A stretch of 64,000 nucleotides of DNA from NCBI GenBank assembly GCA_018389105.1, contig JACATO010001095.1:62001-126000 (forward strand), given 5' to 3'. How positions within the stretch are numbered: position 1 is the first letter of the stretch; every line of letters starts with the position of its first letter. Made by a program: the position numbers and the translations under genes. Shown in pieces: positions 10,314 through 46,052 of this stretch. The notes under the pieces are model-generated. The model worked only from the letters and a program-made list of their open reading frames with translations. It did not search any database and was not told where the DNA came from. This DNA is from Nautilus pompilius. Lineage: Eukaryota; Mollusca; Cephalopoda; Nautilida; Nautilidae.

Positions 10314-11315
10314 GAAAATGTACACTTCCTTTACATTCCCAGTAGTATCTGTTAAATCTAAACTGAGCCAATTGATCGTGATCAAAATTACGCTTCATTG
10401 GTGTAGTAAATGTTTTGAGAGCCTATTTGAACTCAACCGCGAAATAACTAGGAACGCACAATTTGGTGAAAGTTGATCCGAGTTTTTCCGCATCATGCCC
10501 TCGGATGCCATTCCTTAGAGATTTGTACTGACTACTCCCCCGCACAAGTTTACAGCTGCACTAATCCTTACAACCAAAGACAGACAAGAGGAAATGCCAT
10601 AGTGGTGTCACAAGAGAGGTGTTGAACTGGTGCTGCAAGCAGGGCCTTTGATGCAAGCAAGAGACATTTGGAAAGCACTGGCTGTGCTAGAAGATGCGTC
10701 TCTGCCGCAAAAAGTCAGCCCACCTGTTATAAAGAAGACTGTTCATACTAGAAGTGATGAAAAGCACAAAGCTGTGTGACCAGGGCAGAACAGAGCTACA
10801 CAAGCCATGAAAATCCTTGACAAAGGCAGTCACACATGCTTTCTGTAATTACTAATTCTCAATTGACGAAATAAAAAAAAATTTGCAAACTCCCAATAAT
10901 TAACAGGAATATGCCAATGCAGTTAACTGAAGGTTTAATCTTGTGCTTCAGTGAAGACTAACCTAGAAGACCCTGGGGCTAGTCAGATTACCAACAACTA
11001 CATCACATCTAACAGTACAATAAATATTTTAAAGAAATTTAAGTCCTTTTTTTTCCCATAAATGAGACAAACGCACAATGAGGAAAAAAATTCCTCTAAT
11101 ATGAGACTGCATCAAAGTGTAATAATGATCATATCCCCAAAGATTAACAAAATTATATTTTCTAAGTGAAAAACCACAAAGAAACATAAAAAACGAAACC
11201 AGTTCCCACACAAAATCTGAATAAACGGACGATATTCTCGTCCCAGCCAGAATTTTTACATCTATTGAGATATTTTAGTCAGGCTGACCATTCTGACTTT
11301 TCCACACAATGAGAA

Positions 11316-11332
11316 CTCTCTCTCTCTCTCTC
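11316..11332 (+). repeat. (CT)n microsatellite in left duplicate
   Basis: Counterpart of 31232-31248; the runs have the same length in both copies. Confidence 0.7.
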
Positions 11333-12225
11333 AAACACAAGGATTAAAATACATCAATCCACACACCTGTTACATTTCGTTTTGTTAACGGAACAAAAAT
11401 CAACCGTTCACAATCCATTTTCAGTCTTCATGCCGTAAAAAAAAAACAGGAATTTATGCAGCATCCATATAATCCACAAAAATCCTGACTTCTTACTAAA
11501 ATATAATTTCACAAGAAATAGAAGGCAAACAAGTAGTCAAAGGGAGAGTACTCTGGTTATTTATATCAAATTATGGAAACACCCGCACGAAAGATTTAAT
11601 TTCCGTTTCTGTTATTTATCAGGGTGACGCTACAATATTTAAAATACCAAATACCACACCCGTTATGTATCATTAGTGAGATTACCATATAATCATTTAC
11701 AATTTTAGAGTATGGTCCCAGAAAACGTTAAAATACTTGCTTGTTTATTACGTTTTTAATATATAAATTATAAAAACAATTTTTATCTAAAATTGTTCAT
11801 CAGATAATGACGATAAGAAGAATGTGCGAAATAATCCGTTGGTTTTCAACAGTAGAATTCCTAGTGGAGAAGATGTATACATCACAGGTTCACGCCGTGT
11901 ATGTGCTGGTTAGGGAAGTATCAGGAGGAAAAAAAAAGAGATTGAGGTTGCAATCGCTCTCCAAAATTCGTTTTCATCTTTTCAGTTACGCCAAGTAAAT
12001 AAAATTAAAAGCAAATGCTAATTTAACAATTTTAAAAGTTCCAAATTTACACAACCACTTATTTATTTTCAAACGTAATTTCCACCAGATACGAAATAAT
12101 CCCTATTGAATGACAGTGCCCTGAAACAAAACAATTTATTAGCCTGTCTCAAATCGAGGACAGGTAACAGGTTATTGTTATGGTAATGAAAAAATATTTT
12201 TTTTAAAATTTCAACTACTTAGCCA

Positions 12226-12231
12226 CACGTG
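12226..12231 (+). promoter_or_regulatory. E-box CACGTG upstream of orphan exon 1
   Basis: Palindromic E-box 129 nt before the ATG, the left counterpart of 32141-32146. E-boxes are bHLH sites; autoregulation is only a possibility. Confidence 0.3.
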
Positions 12232-12359
12232 ACTAAGTCTCGTAATCGCTATTCGACCGGACATAGTAGTTGGCGGAAAGTTCGACAATAAACAAACCAA
12301 CTCAAACCCTCCCCACCACCAATATTTTCTGGTCTTCTACTCTATGAGGGGTTTCTAGC

Positions 12360-12578
12360 ATGTCAACTGCGCCGTCTTTCGAGCAAACTGTCCAGACGAC
12401 GGCAGAGGAAGACAGTGGTTCGGAGACACACGGCTATACGAAGGATGCCATTTTCTCAGTTCTGGAGGCGAACTTACCCCGAGGCTACTCCTCAGACGAC
12501 TCCAACAGCCTGTGTGGGGCCGGCTTACTGATGAGCGAAGCATGTTTTTCTCCGAACAGCCATTCTCTTAATGGCGAG
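12360..12578 (+). pseudogene. Orphan duplicate of SOHLH2 exon 1
   Basis: Encodes the same 73 residues as the intact exon and keeps donor GAG|GTAAGT. Downstream only degraded exon 6 and inverted exon 7 remain, so it cannot make full-length SOHLH2 by itself. In theory a transcript from it could splice over 24 kb into exon 2 at 36,677, serving as an alternative first exon; there is no evidence for that in the sequence. Confidence 0.7.
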
Positions 12579-12722
12579 GTAAGTATGTGGGCACAATGAC
12601 AATAAAGTTGCCAACAGTGAGCTGTAAGTCGGGCCGAAATGTCAGTTACTGTCTGCGCTATTCGGCTGCTTAGAAATCGGTGGAGACGAAGGTAGTGATG
12701 TTTTACCGCTTTAATACGAATT

Positions 12723-13011
12723 GCTTGTTACGGTTTCGTGCAACTTTATTATCGTTAATAAATCCAGCTAATCAATTTATGCGCAGAATCACGTTCTTTA
12801 TATGTACCAAATTAAGAGTTTAAAGAAAGGATTACTATAGACTTCGGTTTTTTTCTTCATTTAGCAGACTTTTAGAATGACATCGGTTTCAAATTAATCT
12901 GCAACTAGTGAAAAAAATTTTTCTTTAAACTACCGACTATTGCAGGGACGCTATCTGTCCAGGTTTAGTTTAAGTTAATATTGAGTTATTTCCCTTACAA
13001 TATAACACGTC
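12723..13011. other. Junction segment between duplicate block and exon 6 relic
   Basis: CpG-containing, AT-rich DNA. The first bases (GCTTGTT, then CTTTATT and AATAAAT) faintly resemble the start of SOHLH2 intron 1 after 32,650, suggesting diverged homology beyond the near-identical block. Confidence 0.3.
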
Positions 13012-13447
13012 ACCAAGCATCAACCACTACTGCCAATGCCTTAATCACACCACCACCAAGGAAAAACTCAGAAGGTAGCAATATATATTTATTTATTTCT
13101 TTTCATTGTTTACAGAGCAATGTTAGGAATTTGTCATGTTTTGTAGGACATGAGTGAGCTACGGGTTGTATTGTCATGGAGATGGGCAATTTTTCCATTG
13201 GTGTGATATGAATTCTTTTTTTTTCTAATCATTTGTTAAAATAGTAAGTTGTATGTATCATAGGGAAAATAAATCATAAATATCCTCATCATCTCTCTTC
13301 CATTGAGGTTTCATGCTTGGAAGACTTGCCTCAAAAAATTCCAATGCCTGCTGCCCACACTTCTCATGTGTGCTGCTTAGGCACAATATGATACAAATCC
13401 TAATGACATACTATGGACCTTTATTTATCTGTGTAACAAAGAAAATT
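13012..13447 (+). pseudogene. Degraded copy of SOHLH2 exon 6 end plus intron 6
   Basis: Aligns with 40,217-40,691: the exon end AAACTCAGAAGGTAG, the intron block with ATGGAGATGGGCAATTTTTC, and the block with TTCATGCTTGGAAGACTTGC. It has internal deletions in the exon and after the donor, and scattered substitutions, so it is clearly older than the exon-1 duplicate beside it. Confidence 0.85.
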
Positions 13448-15318
13448 CAATAAAACGGTTTGTTGAATTAAGATGCAAATTCACAATATATCTAATTGAA
13501 GTTAAGCCCAAACTAGAGAGAGATCTGAATATCCAGTTCTTTAGGTTTCATAACTTGAAATAAACAAACACTTTTTCACATGCATTTGAGTTGTTGAATG
13601 AAGTTTTTTCTTATTTTCCAAACCTTAAAGACTTGCAGGATCCTTCGTATGTTTTTTTTTTTTTTTAACTCAAAGGTCAAGTAAAATCATCTACAAATCT
13701 TCACAATGAAGTTAAACATTAGGGGTATGGTGCTTTAACATTGACTATTTATCGACAAGCAGCAATACCTAGCTATAGCTTGGTTTTGGACCTGAAAATG
13801 ACAGAATGATGTAGCCTGATGTTATTTGGTGCAACAATCTTATCATTCCATCTTTGGAGCAGTTTCCAGAGAGATCAGTTAATGAAAGATCTTGCAGAGG
13901 GTGCCAAAACTAAAATGATCAATGTTAAATCACACATCTTGCTTGATGTAACTGCTATCTCTGGTCAGAGATAGTCCATGAGACCCCACTATGAAATCAA
14001 TTACACTGGTAATTTACACATTAGACATGTGATATTTCACATACCACCTAACACCAGCACATTTTCAGACTATGGCACATTGTAGCCAGTTTCTCATTGA
14101 TGAATCAATTCAACCTTTACTTTGCTGATGGTCTTGTTTGGCAGAAATCAAACCAACATAAGGTTGACTGTAATGAGACAGAACATTTTGGCAGTTGTGG
14201 TGTTCTAGTGTAAAAAATGTCACATGGCCATGAAAGCAGAACATTGCTACAAGATTCAGATGTCTGGACTGTACATGAAATAAGTGCGATACTGTAGTGC
14301 AAGTTGGGCAGTCATACACTCTACTGAAGATCATTTGATTATTGTCGTCATTATGACATCACTAAATGCTAACAATGTCCAAATATTGCACAAAATGAAT
14401 AAAAATTTTATAGATCATTTTGGATTGTACAAATGTTATATCTTCAGAAAATGTCAATCAATTTGATTTTAAAATTGCATTAATTAGCAATATTTTATTT
14501 TATTTTTGCTTTTATCTTTTAGGTTAGATTTTTTATCATTGTGCAGTATTGCAAAAAAAGTAACCAAACTTGAAAAGTAGCTTGCTTCTAATCATGTTTA
14601 TTACCAAAGTCACTACTAGTGGGTTTTATCTGAATTTAACTTTTTTTGCTTGATTAATTTCTTTGCAAATTACTTAAAGAAAATATTCACACAGTATTAT
14701 TTTCTGCCACCGAAAGCTCTGATCACCAGGTTTTGTTGGCCTATTAGTATGGTAGCACACTATGCATTCTGCAAAGAGTTTCTTCCTGTAACCTTTCTAA
14801 AGGTTTTTCTTTAAGAATTTTTTTAATGTAGTCATTTTAGAACTAGCTGGAGACTCCAATATATGAGCCAACTATTTACCACCTTTTGGCGAGTCCTTAT
14901 AATCAGCTTACATCCTTACTAAGGATGAGAGTATGTGGGAGTGAGAGCATATTCATTTACTTAGTTTACAAATGGTTTCCAGATTCCTTTGTTTATGCTT
15001 GAAAAATTTTTTTATTATCATGCATATTTATTTGCAAAAGAAAAATTTGCTGCTTTAATATTTTTAAGCCCCTCACACTACTATTCTTTATTTCAGAATA
15101 TCCAATTTGCTGCTTTCCATTTATATGTAAACGCAAAAACAATGTTCTCTCATGCTAGGTTTGATCACACACCTACTGCCTCAAGACAAAAACTAGTGCT
15201 CAAAATTTTAAAAATTATTTTGAATTTGAGCAAAGATTCTAAAAATAATAATTTTTCAGTGACCACATATTCCACTTCACCACCATTTAGTTGGTATAAT
15301 CAGTTTATGTATATGATT
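13448..15318. other. Unassigned CpG-poor DNA between SOHLH2 relics
   Basis: No gene recognised. A 110-codon open frame (14989-15321) and overlapping minus-strand frames (14110-14334) match nothing known. It may contain diverged SOHLH2 intron or old repeats. Confidence 0.4.
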
Positions 15319-15557
15319 TGAATGATAATGGTAAAGATATTCTTCATGGGTAAGTGGTCACTTCTAAACATTTCTAAGATCTGCTTACCTGGTTTTGAAA
15401 TTCCTGTAGCAATACAGCAGTGACTATTTTCAAATGATCTACACACACCCAGAACCGATGCCATTGTCAGTCTTGCAGCCACGTATATACAGCAGCATTA
15501 CTTTTTAACTGGTCACAGCTTTCTTTTATCCTTTCTCTGGTGAAATGAAAAGGAAAC
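15319..15557 (-). pseudogene. Inverted, degraded copy of SOHLH2 exon 7
   Basis: Reverse complement of about 40,728-40,970. It keeps the intron 6 acceptor, the basic-region start and the exon 7 donor, but carries many substitutions and small indels (for example in the RGRKTD loop). Orientation is opposite to the exon 6 copy at 13,012, so the old gene copy was rearranged as well as deleted. Confidence 0.85.
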
Positions 15558-15979
15558 AACAATATCCAGAGCATTCTTAAACATTTTACAGAACCAGATT
15601 CCACAAACTACTCAGGAAAATTGGAGGGACTTGTCTCAATGACTCTAAAAAGCTATGCTAGTGGAAGTTATAACTCTTCAGATTTGATAGATGCCACTGC
15701 CAGATAAATTGCAGCTTTTTCATGCCAAAAGACCCAGGGTCCATGAGGTGTAGGAATGGCAAATCAAATAAGTAATTGTGATAAAACAATTGATGGTTCT
15801 ACCCACATGAAGTTTCACCAGATGAGTGGGTGGGTACCAAGGGCCACATTCCTTGAAGTGTCCAAGACTCATTAACTGGAAGAATTTGTTTGATCATGAG
15901 GATCCAGGGGATCACAGAAAAATGCAGCTGGCTAATTCAGAGAGAATGAAGTAAAAATCTCTACAATGGAATGCAGAAA

Positions 15980-18470
15980 ACTCTAGGGAAAAGTAGAGGG
16001 AGGGAGGGAGACATGGATTAGAAAATCCCACTTCAAGGAAGACCAACATTTTGTGTGTATGAGATAGACTTTTCAAAGAAACAAGGAAAAAGACTAGAAC
16101 ACACTGCTTTAAAAAAAATGCAGCAAAAGAGTTGCCTGCAGACTTGGAAACTAAATCTGAAATCTATTAAATATATACTTAGAGGAAAAAATTCCAAGTT
16201 TATGATGTCTAACACCCCCCCCCCCAATCTCAGAACACAGACAGACAGACCTTTCTGTACAATCTGGGTGTTGGGTGTTCTGGAAAACAACTTCATTGTA
16301 TTAGAAGACTTTAACAGCCACTCCAAGCTGGAGCTACGAAGAAACTGTAAAGAATTGGGAAACTGGTAAGTTGATATCCACCACCCCATTCTCATTAAAA
16401 GACCATGATGATCCAGCAACATTACTCCAGGAGATGGCATTCAATATCAACACCAGACTTGGCTTTTGATACTGATGATACTGCAAATTTGTAAGAAGGA
16501 AAGGAAGTGGGTGATTAACTTGGTGGGAGTGACCATTAACCAATTTTACTTAACACTAGAATCAAGATGGAATTACAAAAAACAAACAAGACTTAAAACC
16601 CTCTTCACAGGAAATATTTCTCAATAATGTCAAAGCTAAGTTACACACAGTTGGCATAATGAGTCAACCAGTCTCACTTCAGAGATGTTAGAAAACTGGA
16701 AATTGATACAACAGCTGAGAGAATGGAGAAATCATCAGATGTCTTTGCATACAACTAGAAGATTGAAAATTCCAGCCCAGCAAAAGAAACAAGGTCAAGG
16801 GAACAAAATGTTACAACAGGAGAGGCTATGAATGCAAAAAAATTGTAGCTATCAGAAAACTAAAAGGTAGGCACTCGGACCCACTGTCACTAATGAATGT
16901 ACTGCAACATTTTGGACAACAAGCCAAAGATGCACGTCTAGCAGTATTCAGTATCATGTGGAGTCTGGAAAGTCTATAGTCAGAAACATTTATCATTTTC
17001 AATCTAAAGACGAAAAGAAGAAAACCAGAGCAACCAGTAATCAATCTATTAGTTTTGTAGATAAATGTACGGAGAAAATTTTCCAAAGTAAACTAATTTG
17101 CTAGTTAAAGAATCATTGCTGGCCAATAGAAGATCAAATAGCACATGTAAACGATAGATGTCTCCAAGAAATGTTTTAGTAGTTTGGATAACTGTACAGA
17201 AGAAATTTAACAAATTGTGGAACCAAGTACTATTTCTTAGGCTTCAGCAAATAAGAAGGAATCAAAATGTACCAGTGGATTACCTTGTTTATTAATAATA
17301 GAACAAGAATCACTCTAGAAGATAAAAGAGCAGGCTCATAAAAATGAAACAAGGAAACCCTTGTGAGTACTGCCCAACTTTATTTTTGGTATTTATCAAT
17401 GTCTTAGCTAAAATTCAAAAAAGAGTGAAAGTAACTTTTTGTGCTAATGAGCTAGTTCCTTAGTACACACAAAAAGGACATCAAACTACAATATGAAAGT
17501 AGTACTGAATGTAGTTTACATATGGGCAGAAGTCTCCTTAATATAAATAAACCAAAGTGGCAGATACATCTAAATTATCCACAGAAAAGGCAGACATCCA
17601 AATTAATGCTTGGAATACCTGTCCCAGGAAATAAAACTGACTTATTTAGATTTCATGTATAATAAGCACTTAACATAGTACAAGAATGTTTTAAAAATGG
17701 CAGCTCAAAGTAGGCAAGAAATGCCCAGCAAGTGTTTGTAGAAATTACTTGGAGCCATTGCCAAAATTGAGTAGTTCTTGAAAAGGTGGTGCTAATGTGA
17801 ACTCTTAGTCAAATTGTAAAAACAAAGTAAAAATGAGAGTTTGAAGATTATGAGGGGGGGGGGGCTATGATGTCCACAACAATCCATTGGATCCCTTTAT
17901 GACATTGAAAAGTTATATCACCTGGCTAGAAAAAAAAAAAAGTAGCCAAGCACATTAGTAGAAACATTCAATAATATGAGGTTAAGACCATTATTAAAAT
18001 AATCTACAAACAAATTGACAGCTCAAACTACCAAGCTAATGGACAACTGCCATAAATTCTGCACTGATAAATGCTTGTTAATGAATACATCTTGTCCAGT
18101 TCCATTAAAAAATTTCACTTGCAATGTTTAGAACACTAGTGTGCATGAAGGCCAAAAGTGCTGATGCAACCTTTACCTCATTTTTTGTGCCAAAAAAATA
18201 CTACAAGATTTTGTTTGTTGATTTTTGTTTTTTCTTGCCCATTGTCAGAATTTATTATGGCAAGGGTTGCTTTTATATCCTCAGGAGACTTCCTTGTGGT
18301 CATCTGCTATGATTAATTTAAATTTCTCTGGAAATGGTCAGCAGCCATGAGTGGTGTCATCCTATAGTGCAGAAAATACCCCACACTGAGTGGAGACAAA
18401 ATCTGGAAGCTTGAGACATTCTTGTGATAAAGACAGGAATAAAAGATGCAGTAATGTGACCTGCAGGAGA
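15980..18470 (+). mobile_element. Decayed LINE (non-LTR retrotransposon) with endonuclease and reverse transcriptase remnants
   Basis: Plus-strand frames in order: LQEDQHF and VACRLG (endonuclease start), then NNFIVLEDFNSHSKLE (the GDFNSHS endonuclease motif, 16,280-16,340). Next are DDPATLLQ and WNYKKQ, then INNRTRITLEDKRAGS with PTLFLVFIN (RT palm, 17,290-17,400). TYLDFMYNKHLTW (the TYLGV...LTW block, 17,640-17,670) comes last. Many stops and frameshifts interrupt it. The order fits a single element of about 2.5 kb; the clade (Jockey/CR1/RTE group) is not fixed. Confidence 0.75.
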
Positions 18471-18539
18471 AGGATGAGGATATGAGAGGCCAGTTTGTAT
18501 TGTTTGATTATTAATAAGTTTAAATTAACCTGCATTTGT

Positions 18540-19460
18540 TTTGGTCCCTACTGACTTGACTTGTAACAGAATTCATTTTGCTTTTTCCTTAACTAAACGT
18601 TGCCATTTGTTATGATCTAGTACCAGGTTCAATGTTTGCTTTCTTTACATTTTTGTTTTAAAACATTTCTATATCACAACTTAAGTCTTCATTTGCTGTT
18701 TTTACCTTCATTAAATTTGCTATGAAACTATTTTGGGATTCTGTATTTTCCATTCTACTATGACCACTCACTCCATCTTAATTGAGCTTCCATTTGTGAT
18801 GGTTTAATGCTGGATATAGTGATTTGGACTATTTCTTTGTTTGGGACATCATCTTTCCATGAAATACCAAGTATGCATCTTGGGTATCTGAATTATATAG
18901 CATATAGTTTGTTTGTTTTCCCCATGTATTGTATGAATGTTTCAGCTAAATAAATAACTGTTTAATGCAATTGCATGATGTACACTGAATTTTTTTTTTT
19001 TTTTAAGTTTTGATGCTACATTTATTCCATAATTTGGATTTTAGTTTACCAAAAGAAAAGGCTGATTTCTTTGTTTAGATTATTATTGGGGGCCACAACA
19101 CTTCCTAGGTATTGGAATTGCGCATGTGTGTTTCTGTGTCTGTCTGTCTGTCTCAAAGGGAGAAGGTTGATACAGTATTTCAGTTTTCTTAATGTTAATT
19201 GGGAGATCCAATTTATTTACTACAATAAAAAAAAAAAAAACTGATCACATTGCTGTCTACAGAATGTGCTAAAAGAGCAGAGTCATCAGCAAATAAAAAT
19301 TCTTTCATGTATTTCTCTGATAGACTTTAATCAGTTGAGATGCATTGCCATACATTTCACTGGAATTATTGTATTAGGGCATCCAAATTTAGGGTAGTGT
19401 CACAGCTCTTGTATTGTATCATATCAAATACTTCATAATCAATGGCAGATTTAAGGCTAG
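18540..19460 (-). mobile_element. Decayed LINE 3' portion, second family
   Basis: Minus-strand frames give ADDSALLAHSVDSNV (the FADDAAL catalytic box) and LDLPINIKKTEILYQPSPF. Near 18,760-18,880 lies the C-terminal block DVPNKEIVQ with SQMEAQLRWSEW (compare DKIPDTEVL and QLRWAGHV). This matches the LINE family often annotated in genomes as craniofacial development protein 2-like. It lies tail to tail with the plus-strand LINE. Confidence 0.7.
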
Positions 19461-20700
19461 GATTTAATGGGATGTGCATCTACTCATCTATAGCTCAAAA
19501 TGCTAACTTATATTTTGGTATTTCTGAGGAAAACAAAAAAACCACAGTGGGTTTTTGTAAGCCATAGCTTGCATTTTAGTGATACCCATGGCAAGGCCAA
19601 ACAAACCTTGAATGAAATGTTGTAAATCAGACCTGCTTGGTTACATAAAACCATCAATCTCAATTTCTCAATCTCTCTGTGAATAAGGGAAGCTCCATTA
19701 AGCATTTCATGGGAAAAAGGAAGCAAAAGCAGTCCATAAGCATGTTTAATAATAATCAAAACAAGCCAAATAAGTTTACATAAATAACTTGGAGACAACA
19801 TGTAGTTTTCAGATGTATTTGGAGAAATGTTTTTTTGAAATTTTTATTTAAAAACATTCAAATAAAGAGCCTGCCACCCTTGTCAATCAGTGGTTTCAGA
19901 ATACCAAATAACTACCAGTCATGTAAAATCAAAATCATTTGGAACAAACATCCACAAAATGTACACCACTGAATACAACTTTGTGGTTGTGCAATCAGAG
20001 TTAATTTTAAAGAGGCTTGATGTTTGATTATTAATGCATAATGTATTATGAATTGATTTTTTTTCTTTTTCAGTTATGCAAACTGAACATTATAAAGTAG
20101 GTAGTAGGGACAAGAAAAGTAATCAACAGAACAAGCTACCAGTAGTCTACTGGGAAATGCACAGCAAACATTTGCATGCTTCGAAGAAACAATGATGCAT
20201 TATCAGAAAATAACTTTAACAGGTCAACAGGTGTGTGGAAAAGCATTTGAATGTTGCAGAGAAAAGATAATTAAAAAAAAAAATTGCATTGTTGATTTCA
20301 AGCAGAGACTTTAAAATAGAAATATCTTGCAACTTTCAGAAAGTGTTTTTTTGTGGAATTATGACCTAGTTATAGAAATGTGTGAAAAGACTGCGTTCAT
20401 ATTTTTTTTTTTTTGTGCATTAAATAAAAGAAAAAAGGGGACATCCAGTAGAGAAAATTCATTGTATTTGTAGATCACTACATGAAATAAAATGATTCAC
20501 AAGTTTTCAACTTCTGGATATAATGTTAAAATAAGATGATAATAATCGCTTATGACATTGAGGACAACTAAAAACTTATTTGTATAGCACAATGTTGAAA
20601 GTGTGCTCTGGAACAGCTGTAGTTCTAGGTGAGAGCCAATACAATTTGAGGAATCATAACTTTTAATTCAATTTCTCTGGTGGCCTGTAAATGGTAGATG
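19461..20700. other. Unassigned AT-rich DNA
   Basis: No coding gene or named element recognised. A 97-codon minus-strand frame (19508-19801) lacks any recognisable motif. Confidence 0.4.
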
Positions 20701-22050
20701 CATCTTTGAGTCAAGGAAGATTTTTGTAATCTTGAGTTGAAATTGCAATTTGAACTTGTCCAAATCATCATAAATCTGTGAACATACTGTCAGTTGGATT
20801 TTGGTACCTCATCTGGCATAAAAGAGCTCTTCAAAAGATATCAAAATATGTAATTTTATCAAATTGATAATCATGTCAACAATTTCACAGAAAAAAACTT
20901 CCCGATGATCTTTTAGTTTTGAAAATATGTGGACTTCTGAAAATGGCAAAGACCATCTGCATATAGCTTTTTCAGAATCTGAAACTGCATTATCCCAAAT
21001 AGTCACTCATCCCTCAACTGTGTTTCACAAATTTCACACCGCCTTCAAATAACATTCTTTCAGACTGAATAAGACCAATAAACTTATCAATAATTCTAAA
21101 AATCCTCATCAAGGCTATTTTCAACAATATGAAAAATTTAGTTGATGCAATTTTTCCCGGAAGCTTAATGCTTTAGATTTTGCAACAGCAGTACCTGATT
21201 GCTCTTGTATGGTTTTCAGTACTTCAGGTAGGATCCCTAGCTGTGGTTATAGTGCTTCTGAAAAATGGAATTTAACTGAAATGATTAAGACTCAATGGTC
21301 GTACATGTTTTAGGATATTCAGAGTTTTGGAAAATTTCATTAAAAATTTGTTCTTGTATCAATGCTAAAAGGTGAATCATTAGGGAGTTTTCAGAAATAG
21401 CATCTTAAGTGGCTAAATTTAGTACATGCATTTGGCAATTGACACTTCTCTGGTTTACTCTTTTTCAAAAGGAGTTTCAATTCCTTGAAAAGTGTTGGCA
21501 CCACCATAGCATTGAACTCAACAATTTTCGATATTACATCCAAAATGCAATAATAAATTATTGATCAAAGTGAAGATGTGCTCTGAATCACATTGATTTA
21601 ATGAGTACACTCCCAAACACACACACACAACACTTGTGCTTTCAGATCATTTGATAGTGTCTGCATAATGACATGCTGTGTTCTGTTGACATCAGCTGTT
21701 TCATTAGCAAGAAGAGTATAATACTAAGTGGCTCTGATATCTGAAGCAGAATGACTGAGAATTTCGTGACTCATCAGCTAAATGTCTCTAGTGAAAGATA
21801 TTTGTGTTTTTTTTGGCTTTAGCCACCCTTTGAGATCAGGATTGTCTTCCTTCCGCACCTCAATCCAAGCAATTGGTGCAGATTTCCAGACATTTTGATG
21901 TGGCCAGATATTGCAAGGCCTTGTCACACTAAGTCTACAAATTAGTGAATGTTTTCATGAGCATCTTCAAAGAAATCTTTTTTTCTTTAAATGCTTACTG
22001 TGAATTCTCACCAAAACATTTTTGTTCTTCAATTAGAATTAGTAAAATGA
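20700..22050 (-). mobile_element. Decayed hAT-like transposase
   Basis: Minus-strand translation shows QGLAISGH, with CRGQG-type context lost. Farther along comes LLANETADVNRTQHVIMQ (compare the VLADETADVS-KEQ block after the zinc finger in ZMYM1/P52rIPK-like hAT transposases). A later stretch around 20,850-20,950 (HREVFFCEIVDMIINL) resembles the HF-C-FI block of GTF2IRD2/FAM200-type elements. Stops are frequent and no termini were found. Confidence 0.45.
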
Positions 22051-22420
22051 ATCAAATTTCTACACTCTTCATGTGAAAATTTTTCTTTTCAATAGTTCAC
22101 ACCATTTTTTTAAAATGCTGCTTCTGATTCATTATTAACTTACATTAAATATCTCATTACTTTCAAAGCTTTGAGTCATGCTTGAAAACAATACTGGATT
22201 CAATAAATCATCATGTAATAGTCAATTCAAAATATGAACTTAAACTCTCATATCTCAAACAATCTTTAAAATATTTATTCCTAATGAAAGCCAAGGTGAG
22301 GATAAGATGCTCATATTCCAAAATGTATAATAGACTAAAAATATAATGTAATTTAATTAAATCAGAAATATTTCTACAAAATTTTTAATTAAAATGCTAA
22401 AATGAAAATAAGAGCTAAAT

Positions 22421-23614: not shown

Positions 23615-25029
23615 TATGAAGTTTAATATAAATATAGATAAGTCTTCCAAAAATTTGCATTAGATTTTTCCCCTTTTTGTTTTCATGAATTCTTAACATC
23701 ATTTAAGGTAGTAATATCAAAAATATTTCCTGCACTAGTTTGGAATCCCAAGTCTTTTAGCCAGCTGTAATTCCCCCCCCACTTGTCTATAGCTTTGTTT
23801 TTAACCCTGACTTACAACTATAATGTATAATTATAAATTTAAAGAATATAAGAATTTATAACCGAGACATGAATATTGATTGAGTTTGTAGTCAGAGGAG
23901 CAAACAGTTTTAATATGATAGGGGAGAATTGTATGCATTTTCCCAATTCCATATTGGGGTAGCTGCTGTTCTCTCTACATTCTATGTTCCTGCAACTTGA
24001 AGAATAACTGTCAAGAGTGAAAATTTCTATAATCAACCAGCAGAATTCAAAGAAAAAAGGTACTGATATAAAACAGTTTGTTAAAAAAACATTTCAAATG
24101 TGTCGTTTTCAAGGACAACGTCAAGTATTACTACATTATGTATATAATGTACATTTTAAAATGTTCTTGAAATACTGCATAAGGATACTAAAAACAATTT
24201 TAATTCTAACTTTATCATTTAATTATTTTAAGATATAGTTTTATACTAAAATTACAAACTTCTCTATGGCAATCATCTTTATAGGCAATAATTTTAATTT
24301 TTTTTAATTGTAGCCACACTTTGTTGTAGTTGTCTATTTTCATTTATACTTTTGTTTGTGGGATGTTGAGCAATGGCAGTCATTTATACTCATTTTAACC
24401 TACAATATCAAAAATTATACAATAATGTGCCACTAATGATATGATTCACCATTTAATCCAAAGCTAAAAACTAGAGATAAATTTCAAGTTTCCTGTTAAT
24501 CAGGACAAAGATAAAAGCAGCAAGAGTGGATACCCAAACAGATGTTGAGAATGGTTAAAGTATTTTAACTTTGCTGGTTATTTAGAACAACCCATCAACA
24601 TTTTTTTTTTTTTTTTTTGTCTAGTACATCTTTTTTATGGACACTACATCACTGGCCCTAAAAGCTAATCACAGCCTTACAAAAATTGGAACAATACTTT
24701 ATTTTAAGATCCCTACAGCATGTGACTACCATATTAATATGATGGCAAAACCGAATGTCTTTAAAACAATATGCAAATACATTCAGTAGAATATATTTTA
24801 CCATTGTAGATGAAAATGTCAAAAAAAAAAAAAAGTAGAAAGGGAAGTATTGAGGTTTCTGTTAGAGAAACACTACCTTTTATACACACTAAGAGGTTGC
24901 AAGGATGGCAATGCTAGCAGTAGCTTTAAAAAAGACAACTTAAAGATACTGTTCAATTTTAGGGTTGATGATAGTGATAAAACAATACCATTTTAAGGAA
25001 TGCTACATGTCTGAAACTTCTCAGAATTA
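23615..25029. other. Unassigned AT-rich DNA
   Basis: No gene recognised. Long A and T runs (for example 24,601-24,618) and short frames without motifs. Confidence 0.4.
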
Positions 25030-26235
25030 CCTGCTGTACATCAAGTAATTTATTCAGGACATCATTGAACCATACTGTGACTTTCATTGTGATGAAGTGA
25101 GGGACAGCAACAACTGGGAAAATTTGTCTTGTTCTACATTATGCCTAATAGAAAGCCAGCTGAATGACTGAATTATTCTGTGCAAAAGCATTACAGGTGC
25201 AGCAGTATGCCAAAATATCACTGAATCTTTGACTAGTGCTAGCCTGGATGTTCAACTCAACATCTATGACCATGGATGGAACCAGTAATATGGCAGGACA
25301 CCAGTCAAACTATGCTGCACTGTTTGGCTTTTAGCCATGACTTAGTGTTTTGTAAGAGTTGACAATTATTGAAGCTAGTTCACACCATGTTAGGCCTTCT
25401 TAAACAAATTGTAATGTTTGAAAAAGCTTTTCAAAGAAACTTCCATACAAAAGGTAAATGTACACAAAAGCAAGACAGCATATAACAGAACAAAAAAATT
25501 ATTTTGAGACATGGAATTGGTTAAGCACTAAAATATACACAACTTTGATGAGATATATGAACGAGCCCTTACTCAATTGCCTTGATGCCTCTTGGTAATC
25601 TGGCTGGATGGAAAGATAGCAGTCCATATTCCTCTCAAGCTGAATATGCTTTAGGCTGAAGCAAGAAATTGCAAGGACCCATTCAGGGCATTGAAGGTTT
25701 TAGAATTGTGACTCGTGTGAAGTCATTTGCTGTCAAGAATGAGAAGGATAGCAGAGCTAGCAAACTTTCCCAACAGTTTACCATGTAATTTGGGGACCTT
25801 GTAAGTCATTCAGGTCCCTGAGCCCAATTCCTTCATCCATTACATTGCTTGATCAACCAACTGCTAACACTATCATGAAGTATAACAGAAATTTTTATGT
25901 CTCCACCTTCATTCCGGCAAAAAATTAGATTAACAACAAGCCTGATATTCTCCCTGGGACTTTACCAGATAGGAGGAAAAACCTGTCAATGTAACCAAAC
26001 AGCAAAAATCCTTAATCTGCTCACTTGTAGTTGAGACAGTAAATTAATCTCTGAAACTAATCAAGATCACATTGTGAAGTTGTATAAGAGAGGACCACTT
26101 GAACACATTCATCTTGATAAGCACAAAGAACTGAACATTGCCAAAACTATTGACATGTATGTATACTAAAAGACACCCTGGAAGTATTATTGGACAAGGG
26201 ATTTGACAAAAGCAAACTAAACTATTTTTAGTTTG
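25030..26235 (+). mobile_element. Decayed hAT-like transposase, C-terminal half
   Basis: Plus-strand frames run from a CDEVRDSNNWENL block through SASLDVQLNIYDHGW (compare GLDV...GQGYDG in ZMYM1-like hAT proteins). Near 26,045-26,160 LKLIKI and EDHLNTFI correspond to the LKLIKTYLRSTM-x-ERL-x-LA dimerisation region. Interrupted by many stops and frameshifts. Confidence 0.45.
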
Positions 26236-26299
26236 CAATGTTGTTTTGTCCTTTGCAGTTACTATGCATGTAGAATATTTTAGTGCCAGTCTTGTTTTT

Positions 26300-27850
26300 A
26301 TTTGAAGTGTTTGCTTGAAACTTTAAGGCTTCAGAGTGAGACTTCCAATCTACTTCAGGTTCTCTCATGTTGACTTTCTGCCCATCCACTAACATCTAAA
26401 TAATAGATCTGATAATGGCATATTTGCTATGATTTTTACATTTAGAAAAAAAATATCAGTAGTTGTGCTTCCATTACAAGTCAGATTTTCAAATAGTTTG
26501 TAATCTTATTTGGATTATGCTAGCTGTTTAAAATGAAATATTTGTAACTTTCACATTCATGGCAATTGTCTTTGTTGTTAAAAAAAATTATTTAGGCATT
26601 TTTTAAAGTCATAAGGTAATTGTTCAAGTTTCCAACATTATTTGTTTTACTGTTTCACCATGTTTATAGATTTCTAATGGAATGTTGTCTATGCCAAGCA
26701 ACTTACCTGATTTACTCATCTTTGCTTTTTTCAATTTTGAAAATTATAGGTAGAATATCAAGGTTGGATGTAAATGGAGACGTTTCTGTGGTGTTAAAAA
26801 CTTTGGAAAGAATATTTTAATTTATGAAATAAGCCTTATTTTCTATATTGTTTTTTATCTTACATCATACTTGTTTTATTTCTAGTCAAACCCAACTCGG
26901 AACTTCCTTAGTATGTCTGTCCATAGACTACTTTTAAGGACATAACTCAGTTTTTTTAATCCATTAAATATATGTGTCAGCTGCTTTGTCATCACACCCT
27001 TCATTTTTCTTGTTTTTGTAATTTTGACATTTCTAAATTTTTTTTTTTTTTTAAATCTTGTATTTGGCCCACTTAATGCTTAATGACATTTGTTTATCTC
27101 TTAAGATTTGCTTCTTTGAAACCAGATTACAATTAACTGCATACTTTTATGAATACCAAGAATGAGGAGAACAAACGAAAATGAAGTGATCCTTGCTCAG
27201 TTGAGTAGTTTTTAGAGTTTGATAAATTGCTCAATTTAAAGTTTTTAATTTGTACATATCAAGCCTTTTCATATTAGCAGATTTTAGATTTCCTTGCTGT
27301 GTTTGATTTTTAGATTGCTTTTGGAAGCATATCTGTATAATAGTCTGCTCTTCATGCCCATGCACAATTGAAGTCTTGCATCCTAACTAGAAAAGATGTG
27401 GCATAATAGGTGTCATTTGTTAGATGGTAGGAGTTTCCAAGTGTAGTACCATTTGTCAGGTAATTTGAATTTTTGTAATAGCTAGATCACATTCAATGCA
27501 GAATGTCAAAACCATTTAACCATTTGTGTTAAATGGTGCCTTTAGAAAATCTTCCTAGGGTTTTGCTCCAGGTATTTAAATCAGTTTGAAGTTGCCTAAG
27601 ATCATTTGTTAAATGTATTAGATACAATAACAGTATTTTTTTCAATTTGCACACTAAGTGGGAGTCTGAACTTTAGTTTTGATAGCATTCTACATGAAAT
27701 CACAGGAGTAATACCAGCATTTCTATTTAATGTTTCAAAAATTCATATTTATACTTGATTTCTAACAGCAGCAACATATCTGTTCTCTTGTTGATACAGT
27801 TATGATATTCCAAGAGGCAAATTCAGTTTGAAATTTGCATTTTTGCCACT
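26300..27850 (-). mobile_element. Decayed LINE 5' portion (endonuclease to start of RT)
   Basis: On the minus strand near 26,650-26,810: FNTTETSPFTSNLDILP, then KLLGIDNIPLEIYKHGE (compare the K-G-KSPGIDNIPAELIKHGGE entry to the RT domain). Upstream on the element, 27,000-27,560, lie diverged endonuclease C-terminal blocks, and FASWNIITV near 27,810 resembles the endonuclease start. It could be the 5' part of the same family as 18,540-19,460. Confidence 0.6.
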
Positions 27851-28994
27851 GAAGTGGAACCCTGACTAGTAAGATCCTAAGGGTAAAAAATTGAAAGGAC
27901 ATTTGTTTACCCTTTTTATTAAGGATTTCCCAATCCTCAGAGAGCGCTATGTAATTGTTTAAGTAGGACCTTAAGTTACTGCCATTCTCCATAAAGTCCC
28001 ATGGCCATCAAACTCAAACTGCCTGCAAGTAAATGTTGGCCAATAATATCCCACTTTACAGAAAATTGCTACATCAAACATTGGACTGTCTTTGCAATTT
28101 GCTTATAGTGGGGCCAGAATTTACAAATTTTCCTACTCACTTTAATATTATTTTGTTTCTCTAAAGACCAATAAATGATCTTGACAGTAGGAAAAACCTA
28201 GTTGTAGAGATTTGTCAGGGTTACCTTACCTTCTTTCATTGGTTAAATGAAAGGTTATACCACCTCTTTACATCATCTGGTAAAAAGGATAGTTGTAGCA
28301 TTTTATAGACCTAGCAACACCACAACATAGACATGATGAACTTACCCCATAGGGTGACTAAACAGTTGCAGTATCTTGGGGCAAACCATCCTATCTGATG
28401 GCTATTCAATTCTTCCATCCACCACTCAGCGATGCACCTGATGGCAGCTATAACCATTTCAGTAAATCAGGACCATAAATTACAGCGAAGTTCATTAAAG
28501 TAGCTTAGAAATGGAAACAGTTACTCAGCTGTTTCAAGAAAGCAGCATGTTCCAAAGGATTCTCCCAAACAGGTCAGGAAATAGAATTATGCATAATGTT
28601 CAGATCAGTGTGTTCAAAACAGTAAAATGGGTTATCTGGCTGGTTTATGTTATTTAGAAAAATGGAGATTATCATCACAAAATCACTAATAAATGGGTGA
28701 AATGGTTTTTAATTGAATCACTTCCTGCTTTCTAATAGAAGTGTAGCAGGGATTTATTAGAAAACAGGATTGTCTGACTATTTGAAGAATATTCAATGAA
28801 CTTTGAATTCAAATGTTGATGCTGCTCTTGCACAGACTGCTTAGTAATGTCTTTGTCAGTCTATACTTGAAGGTGCTGAGGAAACCTTTTTGATTCCATG
28901 TGTAGTTAGCAACCAAAATCAATTTGTTACCACCACTAAAATACTTGGCATAAGCAGCTAGGCCAAGCATCATTCTATTAAAATTTTGCATATT
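27851..28994. other. Unassigned AT-rich DNA
   Basis: No gene recognised. A 60-codon minus-strand frame (28809-28991) has no motif and may belong to the neighbouring repeat. Confidence 0.4.
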
Positions 28995-29240
28995 TAAACC
29001 TACTCCTGCTGCAGTCTTTTCTAATCTTCAGGTTACGATACATCTACCAGCAGATATCTATGCAGGTAGTGCTTCTGAAATACTGTGGCAACTCAATATT
29101 ATCAGTTTGGGTTGCTGAGCTTTCAGATGGAACTACACTTGCATTTTGAAGCAGTCGTCATTGCCATGGTGGGTTATGGCAGCTAGGGTCTTATTTTAGA
29201 CCATGGAAAAAAAGAGATGCATGCAATTTTTAGAACTAAA
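28995..29240 (+). repeat. Unclassified interspersed repeat, copy A
   Basis: Colinear with 41,940-42,310 over several blocks, in the same orientation. Family unknown; diverged. Confidence 0.4.
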
Positions 29241-29247
29241 AATATAC

Positions 29248-29275
29248 AGCTGTGGCCAAAAGTTAGGCATCACCC
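29248..29275 (+). mobile_element. Solo Tc1-like terminal inverted repeat
   Basis: CAGCTGTGGCCAAAAGTTAG followed by GCATCACC resembles the outer end of many animal Tc1 elements. No matching right end or transposase was found within the next kilobase. Confidence 0.35.
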
Positions 29276-30112
29276 TAGATCTGCAATGTCAGTTTATCAA
29301 CACTATTAAGTATGCAGAACAATGAATGGTATGTATTTTAGTACAATAATATGGTATGACACAAAAATTGTCTATGGCTATACTTATTATCTAAGCACTA
29401 GGTTTTTTTAAGGATAGGAATATTAACATTAATAAACCTGAGGCCTATCTATATGGTACATGAAAGAAACTCAGTAAGTACATTTCAATTTAATTGGTAG
29501 CATTAAATTTTCATGCTTTAAAACAAAAACCATAACAATCAGATTTAGGTTTTTGAGGGTTTACATTTTAAATTTCAGTTCAAATGACATGTTAGTATCT
29601 GCAAATCAAATTTAATCTCACAATTTCTTGCTGGAATATTTTGATAGTGTCAAATCAATAAAATTTTGAAGTGCAGGCAGAAACAAACAATAGCCTTCCT
29701 GGAATTTCACCAATGCTCCAGTAAAAAAAATCTTTACACCAAAAAAATGTGCCCAATAAAACATTACACTGCTAATTCCAAATTGAGAAATACGAAAATC
29801 TGGATAAACAAGGTGAAAACAAAACTGATGTCAACAGCATTCTACTATAGACAAAATAAAGTGGCTTCTAACAATCCATAATTTGGTATAAACAATACTG
29901 ATTTCCAATGAAGTTAGTTTTAAAATATCAAAGGTGAAGTTTTTGCCATGCAGTTTCATTCAATGAATTTCAAAATAAAAAATATAAAGTAAACCATATC
30001 AGTGTTAATATAATTAACTTTGACCTTGTTGAACAGCATCCTCAATTAGTCGAGCTTACCAAGCAGGCTTCATATCTGAGTACTTAGATATATTCCTCAA
30101 AGTAGTTTTCAT

Positions 30113-30143
<31 letters not shown>

Positions 30144-30226
30144 ATGTACATAGATTTGGTTAGAAGAACCATTCGTAAAGAAAAATCAGGCACTGGTCTA
30201 ATTTAGAATTACATTGAGACTTTCCT
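29276..30226. other. Unassigned DNA before right duplicate
   Basis: No gene recognised; a 26-nt A-tract lies at 30113-30138. Confidence 0.4.
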
Positions 30227-30385
30227 GAAAATGTACACTTCCTTTACATTCCCAGTAGTATCTGTTAAATCTAAACTGAGCCAATTGATCGTGATCAAAA
30301 TTACGCTTCATTGGTGTAGTAAATGTTTTGAGAGCCTATTTGAACTCAACCGCGAAATAACTAGGAACGCACAATTTGGTGAAAG

Positions 30386-30694
30386 TTGATCCGAGTTTTT
30401 CCGCATCATGCCCTCGGATGCCATTCCTTAGAGATTTGTACTGACTACTCCCCCGCACAAGTTTACAGCTGCACTAATCCTTACAACCAAAGACAGACAA
30501 GAGGAAATGCCATAGTGGTGTCACAAAAGAGAGGTGTTGAACTGGTGCTGCAAGCAGGGCCTTTGATGCAAGCAAGAGACATTTGGAAAGCACTGGCTGT
30601 GCTAGAAGATGCGTCTCTGCCGCAAAAAGTCAGCCCACCTGTTATAAAGAAGACTGTTCATACTAGAAGTGATGAAAAGCACAAAGCTGTGTGA
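30386..30694 (+). other. Unrecognised 102-codon open frame in right duplicate
   Basis: Open frame upstream of SOHLH2 beginning MIRVFPHHALG. The left copy has a 2-nt difference in its middle (near 10,611) that breaks the frame. It matches no known family and is probably not a gene. Confidence 0.2.
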
Positions 30695-32140
30695 CCAGGG
30701 CAGAACAGAGCTACACAAGCCATGAAAATCCTTGACAAAGGCAGTCACACATGCTTTCTGTAATTACTAATTCTCAATTGACGAAATAAAAAAAAATTTG
30801 CAAACTCCCAATAATTAACAGGAATATGCCAATGCAGTTAACTGAAGGTTTAATCTTGTGCTTCAGTGAAGACTAACCTAGAAGACCCTGGGGCTAGTCA
30901 GATTACCAACAACTACATCACATCTAACAGTACAATAAATATTTTAAAGAAATTTAAGTCCTTTTTTTTTCCATAAATGAGACAAACGCACAATGAGGAA
31001 TAAAATTCCTCTAATATGAGACTGCATCAAAGTGTAATAATGATCATATCCCCAAAGATTAACAAAATTATATTTTCTAAGTGAAAAACCACAAAGAAAC
31101 ATTAAAAAACGAAACCAGTTCCCACACAAAATCTGAATAAACGGACGATATTCTCGTCCCAGCCAGAATTTTTACATCTATTGAGATATTTTAGTCAGGC
31201 TGACCATTCTGACTTTTCCACACAATGAGAACTCTCTCTCTCTCTCTCAAACACAAGGATTAAAATACATCAATCCACACACCTGTTACATTTCGTTTTG
31301 TTAACGGAACAAAAATCAACCGTTCACAATCCATTTTCAGTCTTCATGCCGTAAAAAAAAAACAGGAATTTATGCAGCATCCATATAATCCACAAAAATC
31401 CTGACTTCTTACTAAAATATAATTTCACAAGAAATAGAAGGCAAACAAGTAGTCAAAGGGAGAGTACTCTGGTTATTTATATCAAATTATGGAACACCCG
31501 CACGAAAGATTTAATTTCCGTTTCTGTTATTTATCAGGGTGACGCTACAATATTTAAAATACCAAATACCACACCCGTTATGTATCATTAGTGAGATTAC
31601 CATATAATCATTTACAATTTTAGAGTATGGTCCCAGAAAACGTTAAAATACTTGCTTGTTTATTACGTTTTTAATATATAAATTATAAAAACAATTTTTA
31701 TCTAAAATTGTTCATCAGATAATGACGATAAGAAGAATGTGCGAAATAATCCGTTGGTTTTCAACAGTAGAATTCCTAGTGGAGAAGATGTATACATCAC
31801 AGGTTCACGCCGTGTATGTGCTGGTTAGGGAAGTATCAGGAGGAAAAAAAAAGAGATTGAGGTTGCAATCGCTCTCCAAAATTCGTTTTCATCTTTTCAG
31901 TTACGCCAAGTAAATAAAATTAAAAGCAAATGCTAATTTAACAATTTTAAAAGTTCCAAATTTACACAACCACTTATTTATTTTCAAACGTAATTTCCAC
32001 CAGATACGAAATAATCCCTATTGAATGACAGTGCCCTGAAACAAAACAATTTATTAGCCTGTCTCAAATCGAGGACAGGTAACAGGTTATTGTTATGGTA
32101 ATGAAAAAATATTTTTTTTAAAATTTCAACTACTTAGCCA

Positions 32141-32146
32141 CACGTG
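32141..32146 (+). promoter_or_regulatory. E-box CACGTG upstream of SOHLH2
   Basis: Palindromic E-box 129 nt before ATG 32275. A bHLH factor such as SOHLH2 could bind it, but one hexamer is weak evidence. Confidence 0.3.
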
Positions 32147-32274
32147 ACTAAGTCTCGTAATCGCTATTCGACCGGACATAGTAGTTGGCGGAAAGTTCGA
32201 CAATAAACAAACCAACTCAAACCCTCCCCACCACCAATATTTTCTGGTCTTCTACTCTATGAGGGGTTTCTAGC

Positions 32275-32493
32275 ATGTCAACTGCGCCGTCTTTCGAGCA
32301 AACTGTCCAGACGACGGCAGAGGAAGACAGTGGTTCGGAGACACACGGCTATACGAAGGATGCCATTTTCTCAGTTCTGGAGGCGAACTTACCCCGAGGC
32401 TACTCCTCAGACGACTCCAACAGCCTGTGTGGGGCCGGCTTACTGATGAGCGAAGCATGTTTTTCTCCGAACAGCCATTCTCTTAATGGCGAG
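32275..32493 (+). CDS. SOHLH2: SOHLH2 coding exon 1
   Basis: Starts at ATG 32275 (MSTAPSFEQTVQ) and ends at donor GAG|GTAAGT, phase 0, 73 codons. It encodes an acidic, Ser-rich N-terminus with no recognised domain. An identical 73-codon copy lies at 12360-12578. This copy is the functional one because only it is followed by exons 2-11 in order. Confidence 0.8.
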
Positions 32494-35400
32494 GTAAGTA
32501 TGTGGGCACAATGACAATAAAGTTGCCAACAGTGAGCTGTAAGTCGGGCCGAAATGTCAGTTACTGTCTGCGCTATTCGGCTGCTTAGAAATCGGTGGAG
32601 ACGAAGGTAGTGATGTTTTACCGCTTTAATACGAATTTGACATGTAATGCTTGTTTTTGAAACTGGCTCTTTATTAATAAATTTAACTTAAAACTTACAT
32701 TCACTATATTAATTTAACGCATTTCTTAAATATTGTTTGAATAAAAACAGCAGAATCAGTCGATTAATACAAAGTCGTTTGAAATAGTTATCCATTATTT
32801 TTTTTTATAAGATATCAGTAGTAGCCCTTTTGATAACTATAAATATTTGAGGAAAAATTTCGTTTAAGGAAAAATTTACTAACAGTTTAAAGAAATAATG
32901 CACAAGCAATTTTGTTATTCAATTCCTGTGCGCAGTTTATCTACTAAATTCGAGTCCCATACCGTTTTGTACATGTTTAACTTCAGTTTTAAGAAAAGTT
33001 TGTTTTTGTTTAGTCTCAAGTGGAAACTGATAAATACCTTGGTATGAGAAACTCACACCATACGAGACTGGTTTTACATTCCAAAACAACTGATCTCGTT
33101 TATAAATTTAAAACACTTACGGAAAAGCATCCGCCAACCGTATAAACTTTACTGACTACCATTAACAGTTTGTCAGTTAAAACGTCTAACGAATTTTTCA
33201 ACGCAACTGTGTAGAAGTGGCTATTCTTCTAAGATGTCCTGATCGAAAAGACGAGTTTTAGATATGACACTCCTGGTGTAGGTTGGGAATTAAGCGTAAG
33301 CTGGCAGAAGGTTCTCTTGCCCGGGTAGAATCACGTGCCACTTAAAAATGCCACCAAAGGGCTTCGTTAATATAAAGAACGCGATTCTCAATTTCACACT
33401 AACAGTTCATGCAGGAAGACAAGTTAACTAATGGTCTCTCCTGCCGAAATTAGCAGCTAGTGTGAAATATTATAAATTCACTTTCAGCTCCTATTAAAGG
33501 AAAAATTTTAAAAAACACCTTGCCAATTTCAGTTCTCTATTCGCTCCGTGAATGTGCCAGTTTCTCTTCACCATTCCAGTAAATGGTCTCTTAACTTGTT
33601 CCAGGCTCTATCTTGAACTACAAGCATCATTCCTGCACAGCACATTCTAGATGTGGCCAAATCAAAGCTTTATGAGGAAGATCTATAATTTGTTTTTACA
33701 TCTTATGGGCCTCTTCATTTATTTTCTCCAATTTTTATATCTGAAGAAATTACTACCAGATCTATCTCCATGTGCTACTTTTCTCACTCTTTAATAAAAA
33801 CTACAATAACTGGTGCTATTTCGATGTCACTAATAAATGAAACAAAATTAGATCAGAGACTGAACTTAAGGGAGAGCTGTCATGCACCTTTTCTTTAAAA
33901 AGAAAAAAGTAAAATTTTTAATGAATGGACGGTTTATAGTTTACCTGTTTCTAACGATTTTAAATAGTTACCGTCTATCTACCGTTAGATTTAGAACCAT
34001 AAAATGTCGTTTTATTCTCTAATGTATGCAATTTTTTTGTTGTTTAACGTAATTAGACACTGGTTTTAATGCCGATAATTTTTACTCCCGTGAATAACTA
34101 GTAAAATATCTCCACACTTTGCGAACCAATCTTTAGCTGACGAAATTAGACTGAATATATGTATAGAAACCTTTAGGTTGTTTAATATCGTTAGCCTCAT
34201 TTTTATTTTCAGATTTAAAATTTAAAACTGATTTATACTAGCAGATCTGCCACCAGATACAGCTTTACGATATTTTTTTGTAGACGATTGAGAGATCTCT
34301 AACTGGTTCATTTAGAACTAAAATAATTCACGCTGCACCACACTAACAAACTTCTTACTCGGTCATGACTAATTCCCAGCCAATATTAAGTTAGTCTGGA
34401 ATAAGGTGTAGTTATTGGTAAATTACAAATATTGCTATTTATTGGAAAAAATTCACCCATTGCACTGGTAACCTCCTTCGTACGTTAAATTTATTAGCTA
34501 TATCAGTAGCGAAGGTTGAGTATGTCGCGGTCCTACCTACCCCAAATCTCACTAATAGCAGCTGCTAGTTATAGGAAATTCTTAAGACACTTGTAATACT
34601 CAGAAATAAGCTAACATAATATCAATGCACGCATACATTTTTTAGATGAAGTTTAGTCACTTCAGTCAGGACTACATGTAATCTATTGTTTAAGTATCTT
34701 TTACCGCTAATGAAGACAACTCGAAGTCTCAACCAGTTTCGTACCTACTAAAAATACAAGGCTTCACATTTATCTGTACAATCTTGGATATCAATCATCT
34801 CAAGGAAACTTTCCCTCCAAGTTTCGCTATTGCTTCTAGAACACAAGTTTCGCTTTAGCATACAAACTAATTTTTTTTTTAATTTGAAATTAAAGCACCT
34901 AGATTCTACTTAGAAAACAGAATTTAAAAAGAGAGACTAAATTTAGAGCGCGTGTAGTTCTAGAAAAGTGCTCAAACCTGACTAGCGTCAAGAGTGGTAT
35001 CGCACAACAATAGAACAGCCCTCGAGAATCCCCAGCGCCCTCTGGTAACTGAAATTTCAAATTAATTTCTACTGGCAGCAGCGATGACCTCAATAAGTTT
35101 TAGCCAGGTCAGTCTTATCGTAATTCGAATCCTTAAGCGTTTAATTTTGAAATATTCAACACAACAAAAAGCTTTTTTTTAGGTCTCTATGCTAAATGGG
35201 CGAAAATGTGTAGTCATTTAAATACGAGACAACTGTAGGCGGTGTATTCACGGCTGACCGCCCATTCCACGGGTTTCAGAAGTTTTTACCTGAACTACGT
35301 AGAAAAATGGATAATTTATACGATAGAAACCTTACTTTCCTTTCAGTTGTGTTGAGAAGGGGTTACAATTAAAGTAATAAAAAAAAAAATGTATGATTAT

Positions 35401-45348: not shown

Positions 45349-45603
45349 TGTTTTGTTTGTTTGTTTTTTCACTGTTGTTGCTGATGCTAAAGAAATTAGT
45401 TGTATGGTGATATGTTTTGTTTTGTTTCAGGAGGTTTATAAGGCAATTATTAAAAGAAAGATATTTGCTATTCCCTCTTCATACATTCTTTACAGCTGTG
45501 ATAATGTATACCTTTATATATTGGAATAATTGTTCAATAATAACTTATTAAAATGTAATTTATTTTCTTATAAATTAGATCTCAGATGCAAGAAAAGATC
45601 TTG

Positions 45604-45609
45604 AATAAA
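45604..45609 (+). terminator. AATAAA poly(A) signal candidate for SOHLH2
   Basis: Canonical hexamer about 255 nt after the SOHLH2 stop. A variant ATTAAA lies earlier (about 45,548) and further AATAAA copies follow, so the site actually used is uncertain. Confidence 0.4.
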
Positions 45610-46052
45610 ATATATGAAGTGAAAATGTTACAGCATTGTTTGTTTTTTTTCCTCTGGGCAAATAAATGTTGGTGTTAACAGTATTTAACTTAGCTATTGA
45701 TAAGCCAAGTGATCTGATAAGACTGAGAACCTTATAGAACAGGATCAATTTTGTTCTTTTAAATAAATCAATAAAATTAAACACCTAGTTATAGTAACTA
45801 CTAAAGTAAACTGTTTAAAGTAATGCTTGTCGAATTCTCAGGCAGTTGTCCAGTACTTAGCTAGAGATTATTGCTGCTCTAATTAAATTATCATTCTAAA
45901 TGTAATCAAGATTTAAGTATTAAAAAAAATGTAACTTACTTCATAAAACTATTCATCAATCTAATAGTACATTTTTTCTTTCTAAAAAATCTTTCCATGA
46001 TTAAAGAAATTTCCTGTTTGAATATATTTTTCATATCTTAAGGAAATTAATT

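Follow-up and report, generated by a model that had tools for sequence, protein, structure and literature searches.

The window, by which we mean the whole 64,000-nucleotide stretch of Nautilus pompilius DNA analysed here, carries two copies of a 2.4-kb block, at 10314-12722 and 30227-32637, both on the + strand and therefore direct copies, with a spacing of 19.9 kb. By alignment and by search of the assembly, the right block stands at the 5′ end of a presumed working gene, and the left block, 99.75% identical to it, at the 5′ end of what is probably a pseudogene of that gene; that the blocks contain promoters is presumed from their position. Downstream of the right block, the bHLH exon of the presumed working gene occupies 40749-40896 (+), as placed by its splice sites and by a Pfam HLH match (E=6.6e-7) on the open frame 40720-40908, and open-frame analysis puts the presumed last coding exon in a frame at 44875-45345 (+). 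As a query against the assembly, the last-exon region (44850-45700) returned only itself among the matches listed. The gene is presumed from its sequence to be a SOHLH2-like bHLH gene; the name SOHLH2 came from the first-pass annotation and is plausible, since the bHLH sequence resembles that of the SOHLH2 family. Tail to tail with the bHLH gene, on the − strand, lies a frame at 46225-46461 that is presumably a sulfiredoxin, for which no Pfam match was found, and past both lies a VHL-domain frame (Pfam) at 50874. According to PMC6529535, cephalopods have both Sohlh genes. Our literature search returned nothing on SOHLH2 in Nautilus, and the papers listed for SOHLH2, pseudogenes and duplication appear to deal with other subjects.

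Self-BLAST aligns the two blocks over 2412 columns at 99.751% identity; mismatches number 2, and the 3 gaps take up 4 bases in all. The five differences lie at about 10612 (a 2-base indel), 11055, 11086, 11187 and 11577, and the substitutions amount to 2 in 2408 aligned sites. This bears out the first-pass annotation, which had noted near-identical 2.4-kb blocks with some half a dozen differences and had held that the likeness reaches noncoding DNA; indeed, DNA upstream of exon 1 and the start of intron 1 both fall inside the aligned block. Four of the five differences lie in or beside runs of at least three equal bases, a context that accounts for 35.9% of block sites, and the differences may be consensus errors, in which case the true identity would be higher, up to 100%. 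No difference falls within the final 1145 bases of the block, about 140 bases of intron 1 included; given five differences, the long clean run within the block is unremarkable (permutation, p=0.24). Searched against the 727.6-Mb assembly, the block gave two matches only, both in this window.

The edges of the blocks are sharp, with near-complete identity right up to them in the alignment. Beyond the edges, local alignment of the flanks scored not clearly above the background set by random pairs. The downstream flank came closest to a signal, its score being reached by 20 of 300 random pairs over 60 bases and by 14 of 297 over 300 bases, with weaker results at other lengths; by eye, a 7-base match, GCTTGTT, can be seen 11 bases out of register just past the right edge. 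Neither target-site duplications nor terminal repeats were visible by eye at the edges, and a mobile-element origin of the block was dropped on that ground.

Within the blocks, the coding part of exon 1 lies at 12360-12578 (+) on the left and at 32275-32493 (+) on the right, and the two are identical. In both copies the frame is intact: it opens with an ATG, runs for 73 codons and is followed directly by a GTAAGT donor. A candidate exon 2, whose 3′ end is a guess, lies at 36677-36850 (+) behind the acceptor ATTTAG. It opens in phase 0, the same phase in which exon 1 ends, so that splicing to 36677 would in principle be open to both copies of exon 1.

The 17.5-kb interval between the blocks contains older pieces of the same gene, as a sensitive comparison of 12723-30226 with 32638-46000 revealed. 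The piece nearest the left block, P2 (13012-13447, +), starts 289 bp after it and matches 40217-40691, that is, part of the exon ending near 40286 together with the next intron; it differs at 16 of 436 aligned sites (96.3% identity), with 5 indel events (17 mismatches in BLAST), and contains a clean run of 178 bp (permutation, p=0.004). P3′ (14818-14978, −), recognised by BLAST and shuffles, is an inverted copy of a presumed exon at about 41263-41449, alike at 119 of 153 ungapped sites (77.8%) with many gaps, or 64.6% counting gaps in BLAST. P3 (15294-15557, −), recognised by BLAST and translation, is the inverted bHLH exon with flanking intron; it matches 40728-40991 with 24 substitutions in 262 aligned sites (90.8%; 25 mismatches in BLAST). 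P3′ and P3 form one inverted segment. The coding frame of the left copy is broken by frame-breaking indels in the bHLH exon copy (P3), by stops in P3′ and by the inversion itself. Further along, a dispersed repeat with approximate limits 22421-23592 (+), defined by its assembly matches (tens of them at least, at ~74-94%), has inserted in the pseudogene; we take it to be mariner-like, a guess, and its open frame at 22672-23043 gave sub-cutoff HTH_32/DUF4817 matches only.

Toward the right block, three short, weak colinear pieces at 28972-29437 (+; 69-71% identity, with one 20-bp exact piece) match 41920-42802; these are weaker proof, as the gene segment that they match is itself similar to a dispersed repeat (C1092, ~61-68%). 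A remnant of the last coding exon follows at 29673-29836 (+) as two adjoining BLAST pieces matching 45095-45292 at 68% and 77% with gaps, the better with 16 substitutions in 72 sites and the remnant overall about 70-78% alike, and it ends 390 bp before the right block. The tail of the interval (28900-30226) is single copy in the assembly apart from three 38-41-base matches. It also includes a run of 26 A at 30113-30138, 88 bases before the right block, possibly an old retroelement tail. The order of the remnants between the blocks is thus that of the gene up to the last coding exon, bar one local inversion. Furthermore, noncoding DNA was copied too, with upstream DNA and intron 1 in the block and intron in P2 and P3, which argues for an unprocessed duplicate rather than a spliced cDNA.

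Controls support the remnant matches. The interval gave five further matches at E<=5e-6, compared with a best control value of E=0.014 for the reversed interval and 0.018 for 60 kb of the same scaffold. Markov shuffles reached the observed score in 0 of 1000 cases for P3′, 0 of 1000 for the last-exon remnant and 0 of 300 for the 28.7-29.5 kb piece. Other comparisons were null: 13448-14817 against the gene showed nothing above chance, 12 of 60 shuffles scoring as high or higher; 29837-30226 against the gene's 3′ flank was at background, with 94 of 188 random stretches scoring as high; and 12723-13011 did not match either of two 1-kb gene pieces from 32638-40216, where the corresponding counts were 54 of 188 and 19 of 188. 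The gene stretch 32638-40216 left no clear trace in the left copy, with short BLAST matches at best E=4e-4. A search with Rfam gave 0 matches at the gathering score.

The pieces differ widely in how far they have diverged, with substitutions at 2 of 2408 sites in the block, 16 of 436 in P2, 24 of 262 in P3, 34 of 153 in P3′ and 16 of 72 in the better last-exon piece. Under the assumption that one duplication lies behind all pieces, on which these tests rest, the divergence of P3 and P3′ is unequal (Fisher p=3.6e-4; two alignment settings used), as is that of the block and P3′ (Fisher p=3e-41). Pieces of one duplication are expected to be about equally old, and since these are not, the pattern points to patchy exchange, most recently over the block. 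P2 is mostly intron and yet closer to the gene than the exon pieces are, which, together with its clean run, suggests mosaic exchange and not constraint. Among the listed pairs above 90 bits in the 184 kb scanned, outside one tandem array, only the block, P2 and P3 exceed ~78-79%.

The account that we favour, and hold to be fairly probable, is an old tandem duplication whose left copy decayed while its 5′ part was homogenised by ectopic recombination between the copies. The succession exon 1...last exon, exon 1...last exon, as read from the sequence, is that of two head-to-tail gene copies with the left one decayed, and fits an old tandem duplication of the whole gene. A whole SOHLH2-like gene would have been duplicated in tandem long ago, giving rise to an upstream copy at ~10.3-29.9 kb, which would then have decayed to a pseudogene through frameshifts, the inversion and repeat insertions, and through loss of a part that begins in intron 1 and reaches midway into the exon that ends near 40286. 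Presumably, the 5′ part has been homogenised repeatedly, either by gene conversion or by unequal crossing-over within a short array; the presumed promoter/exon-1 block would be the latest tract, and P2 and P3 would carry traces of earlier partial exchange. The left edge of the block may be the original duplication junction, and the right edge would mark the point where homology stops because of the deletion in the left copy. The left copy is thus a probable SOHLH2 pseudogene, and recent homogenisation with the working gene probably accounts for its near-identical presumed promoter/exon-1 block; we infer that exchange, and not a second duplication, made the blocks identical, and the direction of exchange is likewise a matter of inference. 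The block edges count against this account: without clear homology outside them, the tract must end at the limits of homology, and a fresh duplication of the block would give the same edge picture. The lack of a match between 29837-30226 and the gene's 3′ flank, and of a clear counterpart of 32638-40216 in the left copy, likewise tells against it. Of the processes that the first-pass annotation had put forward, recent segmental duplication or gene conversion, the one favoured here is among those named; the decayed SOHLH2 copy between the blocks had been missed, and with it in view the locus does not look like a lone 2.4-kb duplication. Well-known examples of interlocus gene conversion are gene and tandem-pseudogene pairs such as CYP21A2/CYP21A1P and GBA/GBAP1, in which, as in the one assembly considered here, near-identical and diverged stretches form a patchwork along a single pair.

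An assembly artefact, in which one of the blocks is false through a mis-join or through two structural alleles placed end to end, is the first alternative to be weighed, and we consider it unlikely. The differences at runs of equal bases resemble consensus error, and the assembly, if it is that of PMC8257504, was made by merging two drafts according to that paper, a procedure that can leave false joins. Against this, each block heads a gene copy of its own, the placement expected from tandem duplication, and a decayed gene copy with a block at its 5′ end would be hard to obtain by mis-joining. Furthermore, stretches of 3.5 kb from both flanks and from the start of the interval, and 7.5 kb from its end, were used as queries, and for none of them does the assembly contain a full-length match other than the stretch itself, so that no allelic second contig is seen at these places; within the interval, the queries take in everything but 16223-22700. 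There are no runs of N in the 184 kb scanned, and a repeat of 2.4 kb would be short by comparison with long reads, provided that the assembly was made from such reads. The suggestion in the first-pass annotation of an assembly artefact from two haplotypes is accordingly disfavoured, since no second copy of the tested flank and interval stretches turned up at full length and the blocks lie where tandem duplication predicts.

Alternatively, the 2.4-kb block could recently have been copied by itself, through copy-paste repair or template switching, and have landed ~20 kb off beside old SOHLH2 fragments. The sharp edges, the near-complete identity and the flanks without clear homology are what such an event would leave, but its placement would demand a coincidence in either direction, with the same orientation kept: were the left block the new one, it must have landed at the expected place of exon 1 of the decayed copy, 289 bp before P2, and were it the right one, its landing site must lie 390 bp past the remnant of the last exon. 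Nor would such an event account for the unequal divergence of P2, P3 and P3′, and we judge it about as unlikely as an artefact. Strong purifying selection on both blocks as promoters, for which the presence of exon 1 and its upstream DNA inside the block might speak, is scarcely credible, given that only 2 of 2408 sites differ, and none in the last 1145 bases, yet two coding-exon remnants differ by 22%, so that constraint alone is insufficient.

The left block may still act as an alternative promoter and first exon, with its donor at 12578 in phase with 36677. Tandem duplication can yield alternative first exons and promoters, and here likewise there are two first exons that in principle could be spliced to one exon 2. 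If transcribed, the left promoter could feed the exon 2 of the working gene, leading to the same protein; another outcome would be a non-coding RNA running through the inverted bHLH exon. The left copy likely has no function beyond that of a pseudogene with perhaps a live promoter. One could also imagine a pseudogene kept under the germ-line promoter of its parent, whose transcript would be antisense to the parent through the inverted bHLH exon, such that the gene and an antisense or small-RNA regulator would be co-expressed; we regard this as highly improbable. The inverted segment and the bHLH-exon region have four exact stretches of 22-36 bases in common, and only one of these, at 40850-40871, lies wholly within the bHLH exon, the others crossing exon ends or being intronic.

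The locus may be compared with that of BRCA1 and its pseudogene. At BRCA1, according to PMC8268747, there are 14-kb duplications, a pseudogene 28 kb upstream and recurrent 37-kb deletions. As in human BRCA1/ψBRCA1, an upstream tandem partial copy has the promoter (here presumed) and first exons duplicated, with direct repeats tens of kilobases apart; in contrast to BRCA1, the copy here was seemingly once a whole gene, most of which is now badly decayed, near-identity being confined to the 2.4-kb 5′ block. The direct repeats of BRCA1 recombine (PMC8268747), whereas recombination at the present locus is presumed. With their spacing of 19.9 kb, the direct repeats here should make loss or gain of the interval through unequal exchange more likely, as described for BRCA1 (PMC8268747). 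The favoured account, if true, would mean that a 19.9-kb interval prone to recombination lies upstream of the gene for a germ-cell transcription factor. It would also offer a clean natural case of concerted evolution that is largely confined to promoter and exon 1 and leaves the remainder of the duplicate to decay. For annotation, exon 1 can be placed equally well at either of two sites, and the promoter of the pseudogene may be live.

The scans of the surroundings and of the assembly gave three further observations. A 267-bp stretch at 7448-7714 is 99% identical to C1408:364827-365093 and ~70-76% identical to three other places, and probably represents a low-copy repeat that was copied recently. 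A tandem array with a period of ~55 or 110 bases lies some 27 kb upstream of where the window begins (C1050, window-relative -27614 to -26887). Finally, a COX1 search of the assembly gave 117 matches on many contigs, most of them with TGA and other in-frame stops, which points either to numerous nuclear insertions of mitochondrial DNA or to mitochondrial fragments left unplaced.
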